Below, in pieces: positions 1 to 8,084 of a stretch of 64,000 nt of DNA (positions are counted from its first letter, which is position 1; each line of letters begins with the position of its first letter). Below the pieces are notes generated by a model, which saw only the letters and a list, made by a program, of their open reading frames with translations, searched no databases and was not told the DNA's origin. The translations under genes and the position numbers were made by a program. The stretch comes from Pseudanabaena sp. Chao 1811 (GTDB lineage Bacteria > Cyanobacteriota > Cyanobacteriia > Pseudanabaenales > Pseudanabaenaceae): contig NZ_CP101416.1 in NCBI RefSeq assembly GCF_027942295.1, positions 2,582,001 through 2,646,000 on the forward strand, in the 5' to 3' direction.

Positions 1-2
1 TG

Positions 3-413
3 AATCAGTATGCAACCTATGTGCCAAATGCCAAAATCGGTGATTTGGCGTTGAATGATCCCTACTACTCTGGATATAAATATGCTCGTGTTCCTAATGT
101 AATTAGTAGCTATTCATCGAGAGTGGGTGATGTGACTGCACTTTTACCAAGTGCTTTGGCTGATTTTCCTAATCCAGCTTTGGCAAGCAATAATCTGATC
201 AAGTTTGGATTTAAGTTTGAACGTCCAGTTGGTTTTAGTGGCGAATATCTTGGTTCTTTGTTCCTTGAGTGTTTTAATGACTCAGTGGCGATTAGAGGTA
301 CTTCGAGATCTGTTCCCGTTCCTCCTGCGATCGCTGGCATTCTTGTTGCAGGGGCTTTAGGTGGATGGCAGATGGCAAAACGTAAAAAACAGCTCAAAGC
401 TGTTGTCGCCTAG
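3..413 (+). CDS. Secreted protein with PEP-CTERM-like C-terminal sorting signal (5' end outside window)
   Basis: The reading frame is open from base 3, so the true start lies upstream of the window; only the last ~137 residues are seen. The C-terminus has the tripartite layout of a cyanobacterial exosortase substrate: a Pro-rich motif (VPVPPAIAG), a short hydrophobic helix (ILVAGALGGW) and a basic tail (AKRKKQLK). Such proteins are exported, then cleaved and anchored or released by a cyanoexosortase. The visible ectodomain (YYSGYKYARVPNVISSYSS and following) matches no domain I recognise. A strong hairpin terminator follows about 100 bases after the stop. The sorting-signal call is solid by pattern; the function of the mature protein is unknown. 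Confidence 0.7.
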   Translation, partial: NQYATYVPNAKIGDLALNDPYYSGYKYARVPNVISSYSSRVGDVTALLPSALADFPNPALASNNLIKFGFKFERPVGFSGEYLGSLFLECFNDSVAIRGTSRSVPVPPAIAGILVAGALGGWQMAKRKKQLKAVVA

Positions 414-3221: not shown

Positions 3222-4004
3222 ATGACACCAACTATTGCCACTGCTTTTGAGTCTATTCAACAGATTCCTAAGAATCAAGAAACACAAAAAGAAATATTTT
3301 ATCCTTCTGAGGATGGTGAACCCTTGGCAGAGACATCTGTTCATGCTGATGCGATCATTGCGACAGTTGCAGTGTTACGCAATTATTTAGCTGAAAAGTT
3401 TGCTGAGCGATCGCCTGTTGTCCTTGCTGATCAATTTTTGTATTACGCGCAGGGATTTTCTAGATTGCGAGTTGCGCCTGATGTGATGGTAATTTTTGAT
3501 ATTCCGCAGCAGCCATATGATAATTACAAAATTTGGGAAACAGGACAAATCCCCAGCGTTATTTTTGAAATAACTTCTGCGAGTACGCAAGCCCATGACC
3601 AAGCTAAAAAAAGAGAGCTTTACGAAAGCATAGGAGTTTTAGAATATTGGCTTTTTGATCCTAAAGGTGAATGGATTTCTGAAAAGTTACGAGGCTATCG
3701 TCGTCAAGATAATCTGCCAGAAAATGATGAGGAATCTCTAGTTTATTCCGCGATCGCTGATGGTTTGAGTCAAGTTTTAGGATTACGTCTCGAAGTCGAA
3801 GACTCTCTAATCGGTTTCTATCGTCAGGACAATGGTGAAAAATTACTGATCCCCAGTGAGCTATTTGTAGCGTGGCAAGAAGAAATCCAACGGGCTGAGT
3901 CGGCAGAAGAACGGGCTAAATCGGCAGAAGAACGGGCTAGAGTTGCGGAACTGGAGGCTCAAAAATTGCGCGATCGCTTAGCTGAATTAGGTATCGAGCC
4001 ATAA
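3222..4004 (+). CDS. Uma2-family putative restriction endonuclease (DUF820)
   Basis: This 260-residue protein has the PD-(D/E)xK-like core of the Uma2/DUF820 family, which is hugely expanded in cyanobacteria: an acidic residue in VAPDVMVIFD, then VIFEITSAST and later DQAKKRELYESIGVLEYWLFDP. The central Glu and downstream Lys fit the nuclease motif. The C-terminus (from about residue 222) is a charged heptad-like coiled coil made of near repeats of RAESAEE/KSAEERA. Biochemical function is unproven for the family; many copies may be domesticated from mobile elements. The gene stands alone and is followed by a complex hairpin region. Confidence 0.85.
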   Translation: MTPTIATAFESIQQIPKNQETQKEIFYPSEDGEPLAETSVHADAIIATVAVLRNYLAEKFAERSPVVLADQFLYYAQGFSRLRVAPDVMVIFDIPQQPYDNYKIWETGQIPSVIFEITSASTQAHDQAKKRELYESIGVLEYWLFDPKGEWISEKLRGYRRQDNLPENDEESLVYSAIADGLSQVLGLRLEVEDSLIGFYRQDNGEKLLIPSELFVAWQEEIQRAESAEERAKSAEERARVAELEAQKLRDRLAELGIEP

Positions 4005-4200: not shown

Positions 4201-6261
4201 ATGACCTCTACGGCGAAAAACTATGCTGGTCAAAATTTGCGTGGGCGATCGTTTAAGGGGCAAGACCTCTCAGACTCAGATTTTAGCGATGCAGATCTTA
4301 GGGGTACAGATTTTACAGATGCGATTTTGAGAGGGGCGAATTTCTCGAAAGCTAAGATGGGGGTGCAGAAACGGTGGTTAGCTTTCCAGCTAGTAATTTC
4401 CTTCATCATGTCCGCGTTATCAGGCTTTTTATCAGGCTTTGCTGGCGCGTGGGTAGCCGTTTTCTTTCAGCCTGCTAATATCCAGCGCTTCACGGTTGCT
4501 CCTGCAATTGCCATGATAGTTACCATAGCTGTGCTGTTTTTTGCCATTATCCGACAAGGTTTTACAGCAGAAGCTTTCGGTACTGTGGCTGGTACTGTGG
4601 CTGTATCTGGTGCTGTGGTTGTGTCTGTGGCTGTGGTTGTAGATGGTGCTGGTGTTAGTGCCATGGCTATGGCTGTGGCTATAGCTATGGCTATGGCTGT
4701 GGCTATGGCAGGGTCTATGGCTGTGGCTGATGTTAGAGCTATGGCTATGGCTATGGCTATGGCTATGGCAGGGGCAGGAGCTATGGCTATGACTGGCAGT
4801 GTAGCTAGAGCTGGGGCTGTAGCTGGGGCTGTAGCTGTAGCTGGGGTTACAATTTTATTAAGTATTTATGTTGTACGGCGTACTTTAAAAGGTGATACCA
4901 AGTTTGAGATATTGCTAAAATTTAGCATAGCGCTTGCCAGTATTGGCGGTACGAGTTTTCGTGGTGCAGATTTAAAGAATGCTAATTTTACAGAAGCAAA
5001 TTTGAAAAGCAGTGACTTCCGTAATTACCGCGACAAGAATATTCCGAAGACTACAAATCTAACTTACACTCTTTGGAAGCAAGCCAAAAAACTAGATCGG
5101 GCAAGGGTTGGACAATCAATTCTCTCTAATCCCGAAGTTCGCGAACTATTAGTCAGAGGCACACCCAACCCAAGCAAATCCTACGAAGGATTAAACCTGC
5201 GCGGTGCAAACCTTGACGGTGTTTATTTAGAAAATGTCAACTTCAAACGCGCCATCCTCAGCGAAGCAAGTTTTCGTAAGGCAAATCTCGAAGGGGTAAA
5301 CCTCACCGAAACCCAAGCCATTGGCACAGACTTCACAGGCGCACAAATGACAGGCGTATGTCTAGAAGGTTGGAGCTACGACCACACCACCAAACTTGAT
5401 GATGTCGATTGTCGCTTTGTTTTCGAGCTAGAGCATCCCAACGCCAAAGGCGATCGCGAACGTCGTCCCCACGATCCTGACAAAGAATTTGCAGAAGGTG
5501 ACTTTTCAAGACGCTACAGTGTCAGCCTCAACATCGTGCAGCTACTCATCCGCAACGGCATCAACCGCGAAGCCTTCATCGCCGCATGGGAAAAGTTGAC
5601 AGAAGACTATCCAGATATAAATCCTGATGACATTCAAGAAATCAAGAAAAAAGGTCAAGATGTTGAATTAACGGTAGCCGTTCCAGAGGATACAGATAAA
5701 GGTAAATTTGAACGTAGCTTTGATAGTGGATACGAAACTAAACTCAAGGAAATTGAAGCAAAACATCAAGCTCAGTTATTAAAGGAGAAAGATCGCACTA
5801 TTGAGACGATGAAAGATATGTACTTTGCTTTAGCAGAGGCAAAGAAAGGTGATGTTACAGTAATTACACAGACAGAGGCAAAAAGCATGACAGAACAAAA
5901 TCCTGTAACTTTTACTGCGAGAGATATCACGAATAGCGTAGTTAATCTTGGCAAAATCAAAGGCAATGTCACTAATGCAATTAATCAAATACCAGTTCAA
6001 AATACTGGTGAGAGTCCTGATATCAAGACTCTCTTAACTCAACTACAAGAAGCAATTAGCGCCGAAAAAGATCTTACTGATGAAGACAAAGCCGATGCGC
6101 TAGAAAAAGTGGAAGAACTTGCCCAAATTGCCCTTAACGACAAACCCGAAGAAAAATCAACCCTTGCTAGTAAAGCAATTAGAGCCTTAAAGCGCATTAT
6201 CAATACCATTCCCACCATCACCAAAATTGTCGAAACCATCAGCAAAGTTTTCGGTGCATAA
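4201..6261 (+). CDS. Pentapeptide-repeat membrane protein with Met-Ala repeat tract and coiled-coil C-terminus
   Basis: This 686-residue protein is modular. Residues 10-52 are pentapeptide repeats (A(D/N)LxG type: DADLRGTDFTDAILRGANF). Residues 60-90 and 98-118 are hydrophobic helices. Residues 128-216 form a low-complexity Ala/Met/Val/Gly tract (for example AMAMAVAIAMAMAVAMA), followed by another hydrophobic helix (ILLSIYVV) and basic residues. A second pentapeptide block runs from ~250 to 380. The rest is soluble: FSRRYSVSLNIVQLLIRNGI, a VELTVAVPEDTDKGKFERSF segment, a coiled coil (~505-545), and a tail with VVNLGKIKGNVTNAINQIP and a helical acidic domain. The LLIRNGI/VPED/coiled-coil block recalls an uncharacterised module common in cyanobacterial pentapeptide proteins (from memory). 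Likely membrane-anchored; function unknown. Confidence 0.8.
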   Translation: MTSTAKNYAGQNLRGRSFKGQDLSDSDFSDADLRGTDFTDAILRGANFSKAKMGVQKRWLAFQLVISFIMSALSGFLSGFAGAWVAVFFQPANIQRFTVAPAIAMIVTIAVLFFAIIRQGFTAEAFGTVAGTVAVSGAVVVSVAVVVDGAGVSAMAMAVAIAMAMAVAMAGSMAVADVRAMAMAMAMAMAGAGAMAMTGSVARAGAVAGAVAVAGVTILLSIYVVRRTLKGDTKFEILLKFSIALASIGGTSFRGADLKNANFTEANLKSSDFRNYRDKNIPKTTNLTYTLWKQAKKLDRARVGQSILSNPEVRELLVRGTPNPSKSYEGLNLRGANLDGVYLENVNFKRAILSEASFRKANLEGVNLTETQAIGTDFTGAQMTGVCLEGWSYDHTTKLDDVDCRFVFELEHPNAKGDRERRPHDPDKEFAEGDFSRRYSVSLNIVQLLIRNGINREAFIAAWEKLTEDYPDINPDDIQEIKKKGQDVELTVAVPEDTDKGKFERSFDSGYETKLKEIEAKHQAQLLKEKDRTIETMKDMYFALAEAKKGDVTVITQTEAKSMTEQNPVTFTARDITNSVVNLGKIKGNVTNAINQIPVQNTGESPDIKTLLTQLQEAISAEKDLTDEDKADALEKVEELAQIALNDKPEEKSTLASKAIRALKRIINTIPTITKIVETISKVFGA
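4582..4848 (+). repeat. In-frame low-complexity repeat encoding Met-Ala/Val-Ala
   Basis: This tract is built of imperfect 6-base units of the gctatg / gctgtg / gctgta type, giving alternating Ala with Met or Val. The plus strand is G/T-rich with few C residues. The 6-base period means that unit gain or loss keeps the reading frame. The encoded segment is hydrophobic and lies between predicted membrane helices. Confidence 0.8.
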
Positions 6262-6272
6262 GCGATCTAAAA

Positions 6273-6566
6273 CTAAACAACATCCACCAAATCAATCTTG
6301 ATTCGCTTACCTACAGCCCTTGCTGCCTTATCCAAAGTCCGTAAAGTTACGGACTCATACTCAGGATCGAGTAATCGATCTAGCGCTGCTCTGCTAGTCT
6401 GCATTGATTTCGCCATTTTGGACTTAGATAAGCCACGCTCTTTCATAGCTTGCTCAACTTGCCAAGCCAGTACCCGCTTCAGCGCAACTTCCGTCACCTC
6501 ATTTAAAATCCCGTCATCTTCGAGGAAATCATCAAAAGAAGAACCTAAATAGCAATTATTAGTCAT
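6273..6566 (-). CDS. HTH antitoxin, HigA/XRE-like
   Basis: This 97-residue protein has a central helix-turn-helix (about residues 43-68: ERGLSKSKMAKSMQTSRAALDRLLDP), then a conserved tail (VTLRTLDKAARAVGKRIKIDLVD). That pattern is typical of the XRE antitoxins partnered with Gp49/HigB-type toxins. It would bind and neutralise the toxin and repress its own operon. The toxin gene lies immediately upstream on the same strand, with a 21-base gap, in toxin-first HigBA order. The toxin is frameshifted, so this may be an orphaned or immunity-type antitoxin. Converges tail to tail with the pentapeptide gene. Confidence 0.8.
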   Translation of the reverse strand: MTNNCYLGSSFDDFLEDDGILNEVTEVALKRVLAWQVEQAMKERGLSKSKMAKSMQTSRAALDRLLDPEYESVTLRTLDKAARAVGKRIKIDLVDVV

Positions 6567-6587
6567 TTGTAATCCTTTACCCTGCTG

Positions 6588-6937
6588 CTAAATTTTGTTT
6601 CTAAACTCACTTTGTCGCTTAAACGCCAAATCTAAATCCTCTTTAGGCGTTTTTTGTGTCTTTTTAACAAATCCATGCAGAAGAATCATTTTATCGCCCT
6701 CTACGGAAAATAAAACCCGTGTAATTTTATTCTCAAGATTGGTACGGACTTCGTATAAGCCTTTCCCCATAGGACGACAGGTTGGCATACCTATAGGAAA
6801 CCCAAATTCCACAGTTTTAATGTCTTCTCCAATCTTTGTCTCTCATCTTTAGGCAAAGACATAAGCCAATCCCTCACAGGCTCCTTACCCAATTCAGTTT
6901 TAAAAAAGATTGCTTTAATTCGTTTGACATTACTCAT
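6588..6937 (-). pseudogene. HigB/Gp49-type toxin broken by a one-base frameshift
   Basis: Two frames together give a complete RelE-fold toxin of the phage-derived Gp49-like family. From the ATG at 6937 the protein reads MSNVKRIKAIFFKTELGKEP and continues to DERQRL. In the other frame it continues from GEDIKTVEFGFPIGMP to LLHGFVKKTQKTPKEDLDLA and its stop at 6588. Restoring one base at the CC of 6829-6830 (GG on the coding strand) joins them through the family's usual GEDIKTVxFGxP motif, giving about 116 residues, the normal length. The downstream piece alone could start at a GTG (6812) but would lack the N-terminal half. Either a true inactivating mutation or a sequence error. Confidence 0.8.
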
Positions 6938-7100: not shown

Positions 7101-8084
7101 ATGGACTTATGGAGTTTTGTGATTGGTGCAGGTGTCTTCTTTGGTGTAGGAAGCTCATCTTTTAAAATTGTCAATCAAGGCGAAGAAGCACTAGTCGCAT
7201 CCTTTGGTAAATACAAACGCAAACTACCTGCTGGCCCCCACTTTATCCTGCCCTTTATTGACACTGTGAGCTATAAAGGATCGATCAAAGAGCAAGTACT
7301 AGATATTCCCCCGCAACAATGTATTACTCGCGATAACGTGTCAATTACCGCTGATGCAGTGGTTTACTGGCGCGTAGTTGACATGGAGAAAGCCTTTTAT
7401 CGTGTGGAAAATTTGCGTCAAGCGATGGCAAATATTGTCTTGACTCAGATTCGCGCCGAACTAGGTAGTTTAGAGCTTGACGAAACTTTCACAGCGAGAA
7501 ACAAAATTAATGAAGTTCTGTTACGTGACTTAGATGATGCCACCGATCCTTGGGGCGTGAAAGTAACAAGGGTCGAGTTACGCGACATCTTACCTGCTAA
7601 AGCTGTACAGGAAGCTATGGAAATGCAAATGACAGCAGAGCGCAGAAAAAGGGCTGCCATTCTCAACTCTGAAGGTGAGCGCGAAGCTGCTATTAATCAA
7701 GCGAAGGGTTTAGCTGAGTCGCAGCTACTGAATGCCGAAGCTTCACAGAAGTCTGCCATTCTAGAAGCTGAGGGACAGAAGCAATCACGAATTTTGCGAG
7801 CTGAGGCGGAACGTCAAGAGCAAGTACTCAAAGCGCAAGGTACATCTCAAGCAATGCAAGTCCTATTGCAATCGATGAAAGGAAATCCTCAGTCTCAGGA
7901 AGCACTACAATTTTTGTTGGCTCAAAGCTATATCTCAATGGCAACAACGGTTGGTTCTAGCGGTAGTAGCAAAGTGATGTTTATGGACCCGCGATCGCTA
8001 CCTTCGACTTTAGAAGGTTTGAAATCAATAGTTGATACTCCTGTAGATTCGAGCGATTTACCAACTAAAGGTTGGAATACGTAA
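7101..8084 (+). CDS. Stomatin/prohibitin-like SPFH (band 7) protein
   Basis: This 327-residue protein starts with a hydrophobic N-terminus (residues 1-20), followed by an SPFH/band-7 domain (about 22-190: [24 protein letters not shown] and [11 protein letters not shown]). A long Ala/Glu-rich coiled coil follows (about 175-260: [22 protein letters not shown]). Order and length match bacterial stomatins such as Synechocystis Slr1128 (from memory). These assemble into oligomeric membrane microdomain scaffolds and often influence membrane proteases. No NfeD-type protease gene is adjacent. Flanked upstream by a 160-base spacer and downstream by two similar terminators. Confidence 0.9.

Follow-up and report, generated by a model that had tools for sequence, protein, structure and literature searches.

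A hypervariable membrane insertion in a modular pentapeptide protein of Pseudanabaena and its possible place in a cyanobacterial conflict network

What is the role of a protein in which pentapeptide repeats, membrane helices and a soluble C-terminus are joined in one chain? The question is raised by a gene on the plus strand (4201..6261, ATG start) of a 64,000-nucleotide stretch of contig NZ_CP101416.1 of Pseudanabaena sp. Chao 1811, called the window below. According to Pfam and a structure model, its product of 686 amino acids (aa), the window protein, consists of a pentapeptide block, a membrane segment, a second pentapeptide block, a module that we call MID, a coiled coil and a terminal module that we call TAIL. 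Our answer is tentative and held at somewhat less than an even chance: the window protein would act, anchored in the membrane, as a receptor or scaffold within a modular conflict network of cyanobacteria, i.e. one of defence or cell death. What is new here is the hypervariable insertion, the interchangeable output end and the pairing of relatives with a NACHT gene on Nostoc-type plasmids.

Pentapeptide repeats (PF00805, four stretches, E-value 4.5e-32, far above chance) were the sole match of the window protein above a Pfam cut-off, and NCBIfam gave sub-threshold matches only, with nothing above its cut-offs. The repeats form two blocks, residues 6-56 (4216..4368) and 249-410 (4945..5430), which flank a hydrophobic stretch of 192 residues (57-248; 4369..4944) with membrane-like hydropathy at residues 59-87, 94-178 and 200-229. 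Within this stretch lies a Met-Ala tract (4657..4800), residues 149-200 comprising 21 Ala and 13 Met among 52, and its DNA consists of degenerate tandem repeats of 6, 12 and 24 base pairs (bp) in an array at 4583-4843. There follow, all on the plus strand, the alpha/beta module MID (residues 411-497; 5431..5691), a long helix or coiled coil of the model (498-547; 5692..5841), a variable linker of low model confidence (548-575; 5842..5925) and the helical TAIL (576-686; 5926..6258). By sliding identity, the linker and coiled coil occur in two sequence types within the genus. Two pentapeptide blocks split by hydrophobic helices and a Met-Ala tract, ahead of a soluble C-terminus, had been described in the original prediction and are borne out by the open reading frame (ORF), Pfam, hydropathy and composition, and the coiled coil that it named agrees with a 48-residue model helix at residues 500-547. 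Its C-terminal motifs also stand in place (LLIRNGI at 448-454, VPEDTDKGKFERSF at 494-507 and NLGKIKGNVTN, within TAIL, at 582-592), with one small correction: LLIRNGI and 'VPEDTDK...' share one modelled alpha/beta domain. A chance join or an assembly artefact is ruled out by the recurrence of the module order across cyanobacterial genomes.

The AlphaFold model of the window protein, built from 24 sequences, suggests how the membrane segment is held. It has a mean predicted local distance difference test score (pLDDT) of 71.6 and a predicted template modelling score of 0.52, and both repeat blocks are confident (in block 1, a strand every five residues, with pLDDT 87-97 in residues 11-60), while the model is poor in the membrane part (pLDDT 29-75 in ten-residue blocks over residues 61-240) and in residues 536-581. 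Pentapeptide chains top the structural match list from the PDB (Z up to 15.8) and, together with Pfam, place the window protein among the pentapeptide proteins, with at least eight contiguous repeats in a right-handed beta-helix. Solved single-chain structures align across the insertion, several at 2.1-2.3 Å root-mean-square deviation (rmsd) over 92-108 residues: 2o6w with model range 2..320 (Z 14.9, 106 residues, 2.2 Å), 5dra with 1..319 (108 residues, 2.2 Å) and 6zt5_A with 1..296 (92 residues, 2.1 Å). Because contiguous chains align across both blocks, residues 1-56 would stack on the start of block 2, giving a beta-helix of residues 1-56 and about 250-320, and the membrane part would therefore be an insertion looped out of a single beta-helix. 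The earlier idea of a beta-helix interrupted by membrane helices is thus supported by hydropathy and by the alignment across the insertion, the membrane part itself being modelled at low confidence. Alignments reaching residue 443 or 444 have an rmsd of at least 8 Å, and the remainder of block 2 is therefore angled in the model. Lys and Arg outnumber Asp and Glu at the insertion entry in 73 of 81 members and at the exit in 52 of 81, which suggests that both ends, and hence the beta-helix, are cytoplasmic; the membrane helices would then be even in number.

The insertion is the most variable part of the protein. Its aa identity to the window protein in four congeners is 46% (genome G001), 39% (G007), 32% (G022) and 28% (G004), and in a fifth, G011, it is alignable over 83 residues only (61% identical); in G004, G007 and G011 the neighbouring LivH-like permease is 93-94% and the SPFH protein 96% identical to the window copies. 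(One gene of 11, that of G022, was missed by the boundary pattern in one comparison and is covered in the other insertion comparisons.) Between G011 and G004 the DNA identity is 95% in MID and 92% in TAIL, as against 41% in the insertion. Among 81 members uncut by the end of their stretch, pairs with a flank identity of 0.80-0.85 have a mean insertion identity of 0.37 (n=116) and those at 0.85-0.90 a mean of 0.43 and a minimum of 0.20 (n=33); above 0.95 the insertion is mostly kept (mean 0.90, minimum 0.72, n=10). The share of synonymous differences is higher in the insertion than in every measured flank in seven of nine pairs (for loci L009/L010, 0.79 versus 0.16-0.33), the exceptions being the window with L002 and with L010. 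The divergence therefore resembles replacement or turnover more than amino-acid selection alone.

Recombination was judged by sliding identity, and sharp identity blocks were found in the pairs L218/L148 and L192/L206. In a Microcoleus pair, L208 with a CHAT output and L155 with TAIL on a separate ORF, DNA identity is 0.87-1.00 over residues 78-258, the similar stretch extending into block 2, compared with 0.68-0.82 in block 1, 0.67-0.85 in residues 378-513 and 0.00-0.53 downstream. For this pair, whose cassettes are almost the same although the outputs differ, mosaic exchange offers the simplest explanation. The high insertion identity of the distant pair L093/L149 probably reflects common low-complexity composition and was not used.

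Behind the membrane-pentapeptide-MID chain the output end is exchanged between relatives. Of ten proteins submitted to Pfam, five had CHAT in place of TAIL (E 5e-10 to 4e-15); these five had been chosen for CHAT-like ends. The motifs GH[STGA] and [NS][SA]C, which we take to be the His-Cys dyad of CHAT, are present in 17 of 20 ORFs matched by a CHAT profile (four of the 20 being neighbouring ORFs without MID); the others are two cut ORFs and L216. TAIL, in turn, also lies behind AbiTii in two cyanobacterial proteins (AbiTii E 4e-45 and 7e-34), behind Clp_N (two tested, L085 and L091), MobA/MobL (one) and Band_7 (one), and it occurs as short stand-alone ORFs, such as the one 92 bp downstream of a CHAT-type gene at L185 (E 2.5e-24). 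At L247, TRADD-like_N (PF20694) is fused to a relative (E 6e-14), a family absent from the window protein at E<=1 and from its genome at E<=0.001. We also observed another CHAT ORF, roughly 400 aa long, upstream of the membrane-pentapeptide-CHAT gene in two genomes (L198, 479-1684; L207, 1108-2334), and in L230 (772-1866) a stretch matching our own CHAT profile (E 2e-7) with a TAIL-like end (E 1e-5 with a narrow profile, and 6e-21 with a wide one that includes L230). The C-terminus is split over ORFs in L077, L079 (G282, G149) and L155, in the order PENTA-membrane-PENTA-MID, a coiled-coil-like protein of about 190 aa and a TAIL protein of 215-218 aa; for G282 the last ORF was taken from L059 and L115.

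Relatives were found on 39 plasmid records, and ten of these neighbourhoods were read. A NACHT gene lies 9 bp after the membrane-pentapeptide gene in three of them (L243, L249 and L250; Pfam NACHT E 9e-8, 2e-8 and 1e-9) and is third in line in L247 (E 4.5e-13), and MoxR, vWA and GUN4 genes lie no more than about 7 kb from the copy of L244; the remaining five hold no NACHT annotation in the stretch. For 16 places with this NACHT type on Nostoc-type plasmids only positions were compared, and a MID-bearing pentapeptide gene was located at most 1 kb upstream on the same strand at eight of them, four with matches 12-18 bp apart and one being a 19% fragment; two more have a pentapeptide gene within 4 kb, and for six none is listed, one of these at the record edge. 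Between p057_D and p057_C both partners vary in a similar manner, with identities of 0.71-0.98 in the flanks and 0.31-0.63 in the membrane region of the pentapeptide protein, and of 0.70-0.97 and 0.37-0.54, respectively, in the NACHT protein; when pNPM5 is compared with p057_C, identity across the NACHT membrane region is more uneven (0.06-0.72), with islands of conservation. The NACHT membrane regions of L243, L249 and L250 vary between conserved NACHT and C-terminal parts, and they are partly of low complexity (by eye, GL-rich in L243 and L250).

From 385 relatives of a MID group 80 loci were retained, and all of these have cyanobacterial titles, Microcystis and Crocosphaera included; the order PENTA-membrane-PENTA-MID-TAIL recurs in other cyanobacteria. 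A MID-TAIL query matched in 28 of 58 genomes, its own included, and TAIL in 103 of 291 genomes of the class; MID-TAIL had no match in phage records at E<=1e-3. Among 141 MID-bearing ORFs, 81 combine a membrane segment with TAIL (28 of these being cut by the end of the stretch), 14 with CHAT (1 cut), 7 with a third tail (1 cut) and 9 with other ends, and in 30 the membrane segment is weak or absent; this census is a biased one, gathered by MID or TAIL, and its proportions are not frequencies, and the CHAT and third-tail labels come from profiles built on members. The genome of the window holds four MID-TAIL paralogues and no further TAIL protein, together with two partial MID matches (profile positions 1-69; ORF lengths 421 and 277 aa). 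Leptolyngbya boryana, Tolypothrix PCC 7601 and Anabaena cylindrica PCC 7122, which are cultured and partly amenable to genetics, also have relatives, in some cases with another tail.

The original prediction had placed the middle C-terminal module in other cyanobacterial pentapeptide proteins as well, where it is indeed widespread, and in the window protein it is without a Pfam match above cut-off. As named Pfam families, TAIL was rejected at best scores of 21.5 bits for DUF1542 and 21.2 bits for DUF4404 (cut-offs 24.3 and 27) and MID at a best E of 0.036. The best Pfam E over 20 TAIL members was 2.4e-4, the cut-offs being given for the first of these only, and a PDB sequence search gave weak matches, with a best E of 0.0023 for TAIL and 0.036 for MID. 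In a model built from 53 sequences that also covers some of the coiled coil (mean pLDDT 89), MID has the fold alpha-beta-alpha-beta-beta followed by a long helix; its best fold matches, eIF2-alpha, YbiO and MscK, are below Z 7, and Foldseek found nothing at E<=0.001. With TRADD-N, of RRM-like fold, hhalign placed a helix-strand-strand of MID in register (probability 12.7%, P 0.0023), a longer MID alignment gave 4.8% (P 0.0083) and a TAIL control 0.8% (P 0.07). A relationship of MID to MscS, eIF2-alpha or TRADD-N was not accepted on these values (fold Z <7; hhalign probability 4.8-12.7%). PDC-M14B, a phage-defence candidate of PADLOC, matches TAIL of the window protein with profile positions 175-258 of 261 (E 0.0066) and TAIL relatives at E about 4e-4 to 4e-3; it matches 32 of 145 genomes of the class, nearly always by its C-terminal part, and the only nearly complete match is that of L219, a protein with the third tail type, and not TAIL, at its end.

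It seems to us that these observations could be joined as follows. One cytoplasmic beta-helix would carry a looped-out membrane segment that passes between alleles as a cassette and that, because it is the most variable part, is the likely recognition site, either for a membrane target or for a membrane partner. Assembly of the protein, and the relay of its state to an interchangeable C-terminal output, would fall to MID and the coiled coil; that output would be the helical, adaptor-type TAIL in the window protein and the caspase-like peptidase CHAT in relatives, while in the plasmid operon the partner would be a NACHT NTPase. Cell-death and defence systems are known, or are predicted, to use outputs of this kind. 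The interchangeable outputs, the NACHT operon, plasmid carriage, the patchy and decaying copies and the variable membrane segment make us favour a conflict role, which may be directed against phages or plasmids or may lie in cell death, over housekeeping. The 'membrane-bound sensor or effector' of the original prediction fits the contexts of the relatives (CHAT, NACHT, TRADD-N and AbiTii), and for the window protein itself we only infer it. A bolder form of the idea, which we regard as rather unlikely, is that recombination distributes a pool of membrane cassettes over a constant beta-helix scaffold and likewise over the NACHT partner, so that the recognition surface would be inside the bilayer, with caspase-like, helical or NTPase outputs behind it. 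Cyanobacteria would then diversify an intracellular immune-type receptor via its membrane-embedded part. The conflict reading as a whole would link membrane pentapeptide proteins, a large and so far unexplained class, with the caspase-like and NLR-like conflict systems of cyanobacteria, and the family is a concrete, testable case in which membrane segments vary within a constant scaffold.

Several observations weigh against a receptor or scaffold of a conflict network. We know of no phenotype, and the profile link of TAIL to defence candidates through PDC-M14B is weak. The TAIL-like ends of the operon pentapeptide proteins match weakly with the narrow profile (about 1e-5; L250 not at all), and it takes a wider profile to obtain clear matches (E about 1e-18 to 1e-20); a closely following ORF on the same strand was found in only 15 of 66 members examined. 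Beside the window gene no NACHT, CHAT or AbiTii gene was detected (Pfam on seven neighbours, the rest by eye); by eye, the other three paralogues sit among ordinary genes and transposase-like ORFs, with no NACHT gene among the ORFs around them. TAIL may be an adaptor, but a TAIL-to-TAIL partner is missing in this genome, whose only TAIL proteins are the four paralogues, so that it may only oligomerise the protein. In the close pairs L203/L169 and L208/L198 insertion and flanks are both retained, without sharp blocks. Finally, two of the six orthologues in the genus, counting that of the window, have an in-frame stop within the insertion, and in four related genes the reading frame ends ahead of MID or shortly after its start, each time elsewhere; the gene is therefore dispensable in some strains.

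The conflict reading has to be set against a physiological membrane scaffold of the HglK or RfrA kind, in which the beta-helix would bind a housekeeping partner and TAIL would only oligomerise the protein. We consider this rather unlikely, even though HglK, with its membrane helices, pentapeptide repeats and place at the septa, and RfrA, in Mn uptake, are precedents (accessible parts of PMC8145042). The window gene looks stand-alone, with a same-strand SPFH/Band_7 gene downstream (67 bp past the stop in two congeners), a Band_7-TAIL fusion is present in one genome (L095), and a paralogue in this genome lies, by eye, near three metal-ABC-transporter-like ORFs, all of which would suit such a scaffold. 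Patchy occurrence, plasmid carriage and decayed copies would however be unusual for housekeeping, and the same is true of a hypervariable insertion and of the CHAT, NACHT, AbiTii and TRADD-N contexts.

It is also conceivable, and in our judgement improbable, that the insertion is a mere membrane anchor of nearly irrelevant sequence, drifting via low-complexity repeats and homologous recombination, in which case its variability would be uninformative on recognition. The degenerate repeats under the Met-Ala tract agree with this, as do the stops and truncations and the steady hydropathy of the insertion (1.59, standard deviation 0.20) at lengths of 90 to 225. On the other hand, the synonymous excess is unexpected from relaxed selection on a vertically inherited segment, although low-complexity misalignment can mimic it; insertions that are not low-complexity in look (G004, G022) diverge as well, and the NACHT partners vary in a similar pattern. 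A direct membrane effector, whose Ala/Gly/Val-rich and TAIL helices would form a pore or perturb the membrane on activation, appears very unlikely to us. The helices are rich in Ala, Val, Gly and Met, the C-termini of some TAILs (L035, L059) are hydrophobic enough for a membrane-like call, and MID resembles, among other folds, the C-terminal alpha/beta domains of YbiO, MscK and MscS (Z 6.0-6.6), but Z below 8 may reflect merely a common arrangement, and the CHAT relatives place at the output end an enzyme that a pore would not need.

The receptor or scaffold that we favour would have its closest known counterparts in the modular conflict systems built on TRADD-N, EAD and ternary modules (Kaur et al. 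2020, PMC7159879; 2021, PMC8195603), which, in the accessible parts of these accounts, include TRADD-N proteins with pentapeptide repeats and likewise combine, in modular cyanobacterial proteins, such repeats, caspase-type peptidases, STAND NTPases and varying modules. The TRADD-N of L247 and the MoxR, vWA and GUN4 surroundings of L244 are further likenesses. In contrast, Pfam detects neither TRADD-N nor EAD in the window protein, and the same parts of the two accounts describe no membrane segment in a pentapeptide helix, no MID and no TAIL. HglK of Nostoc PCC 7120 shares membrane helices and pentapeptide repeats, but as described in the accessible text of PMC8145042, which also covers RfrA as a pentapeptide protein regulating Mn uptake, it has four predicted N-terminal membrane regions, repeats from residue 501 and a septal role, whereas in the window protein the repeats flank the insertion, with residues 6-56 ahead of the membrane segment, and the chain continues into MID and TAIL. 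The NACHT (NLR-like) proteins that are operon partners on Nostoc-type plasmids have membrane regions too, and show a similar arrangement of conserved flanks around a variable membrane region (bacterial NACHT proteins are the subject of PMC12169576, seen in part); the window protein differs in having no NTPase domain, and a NACHT gene was not observed next to its gene. CHAT peptidases replace TAIL in relatives, yet no CHAT domain was found in the window protein by Pfam. AbiTii is an abortive infection family in which, according to the accessible part of PMC3710099, some homologues carry HEPN domains, and the two cyanobacterial AbiTii proteins carry TAIL in that place; the window protein has no AbiTii domain (Pfam). 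Among open PMC titles and abstract starts (subscription papers being outside this scope), no description of a membrane-inserted pentapeptide family or its variable cassette was found.

Co-occurrence with neighbouring defence genes, proposed earlier as a check, was not established at the window locus, where the candidates are a Uma2 gene and a toxin-antitoxin-like pair. The Uma2 family gene is directly upstream (3222-4004, plus strand) and matches the PADLOC candidate PDC-S03 (E 1.6e-15); it lies beside the pentapeptide gene in five congeners, and the genes before it are also common to four of these (not G001). The pair (helix-turn-helix PF13443 and Gp49/DUF891 by Pfam; 6273-6812, minus strand) separates the pentapeptide gene from the Band_7/SPFH gene (7101-8084, plus strand) and had no match at the loci of the five congeners, so it is possibly a recent insertion. 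Downstream SPFH and permease genes are found in three congeners (G004, G007, G011). Clustering of neighbours at 21 loci, with ORFs overlapping the gene itself on the opposite strand set aside, revealed no conserved partner among the 25 largest clusters, which reach one locus each outside the genus (by eye, Uma2-like L105, antitoxin-like L112, small pentapeptide L104 and TrpG-like L103). Uma2-like genes are also near single copies outside the genus, at L105 and, by eye, L164. In the genome of the window, the paralogue near the metal-ABC-transporter-like ORFs (L266, 1932-5252) also has, by eye, a small pentapeptide gene nearby.

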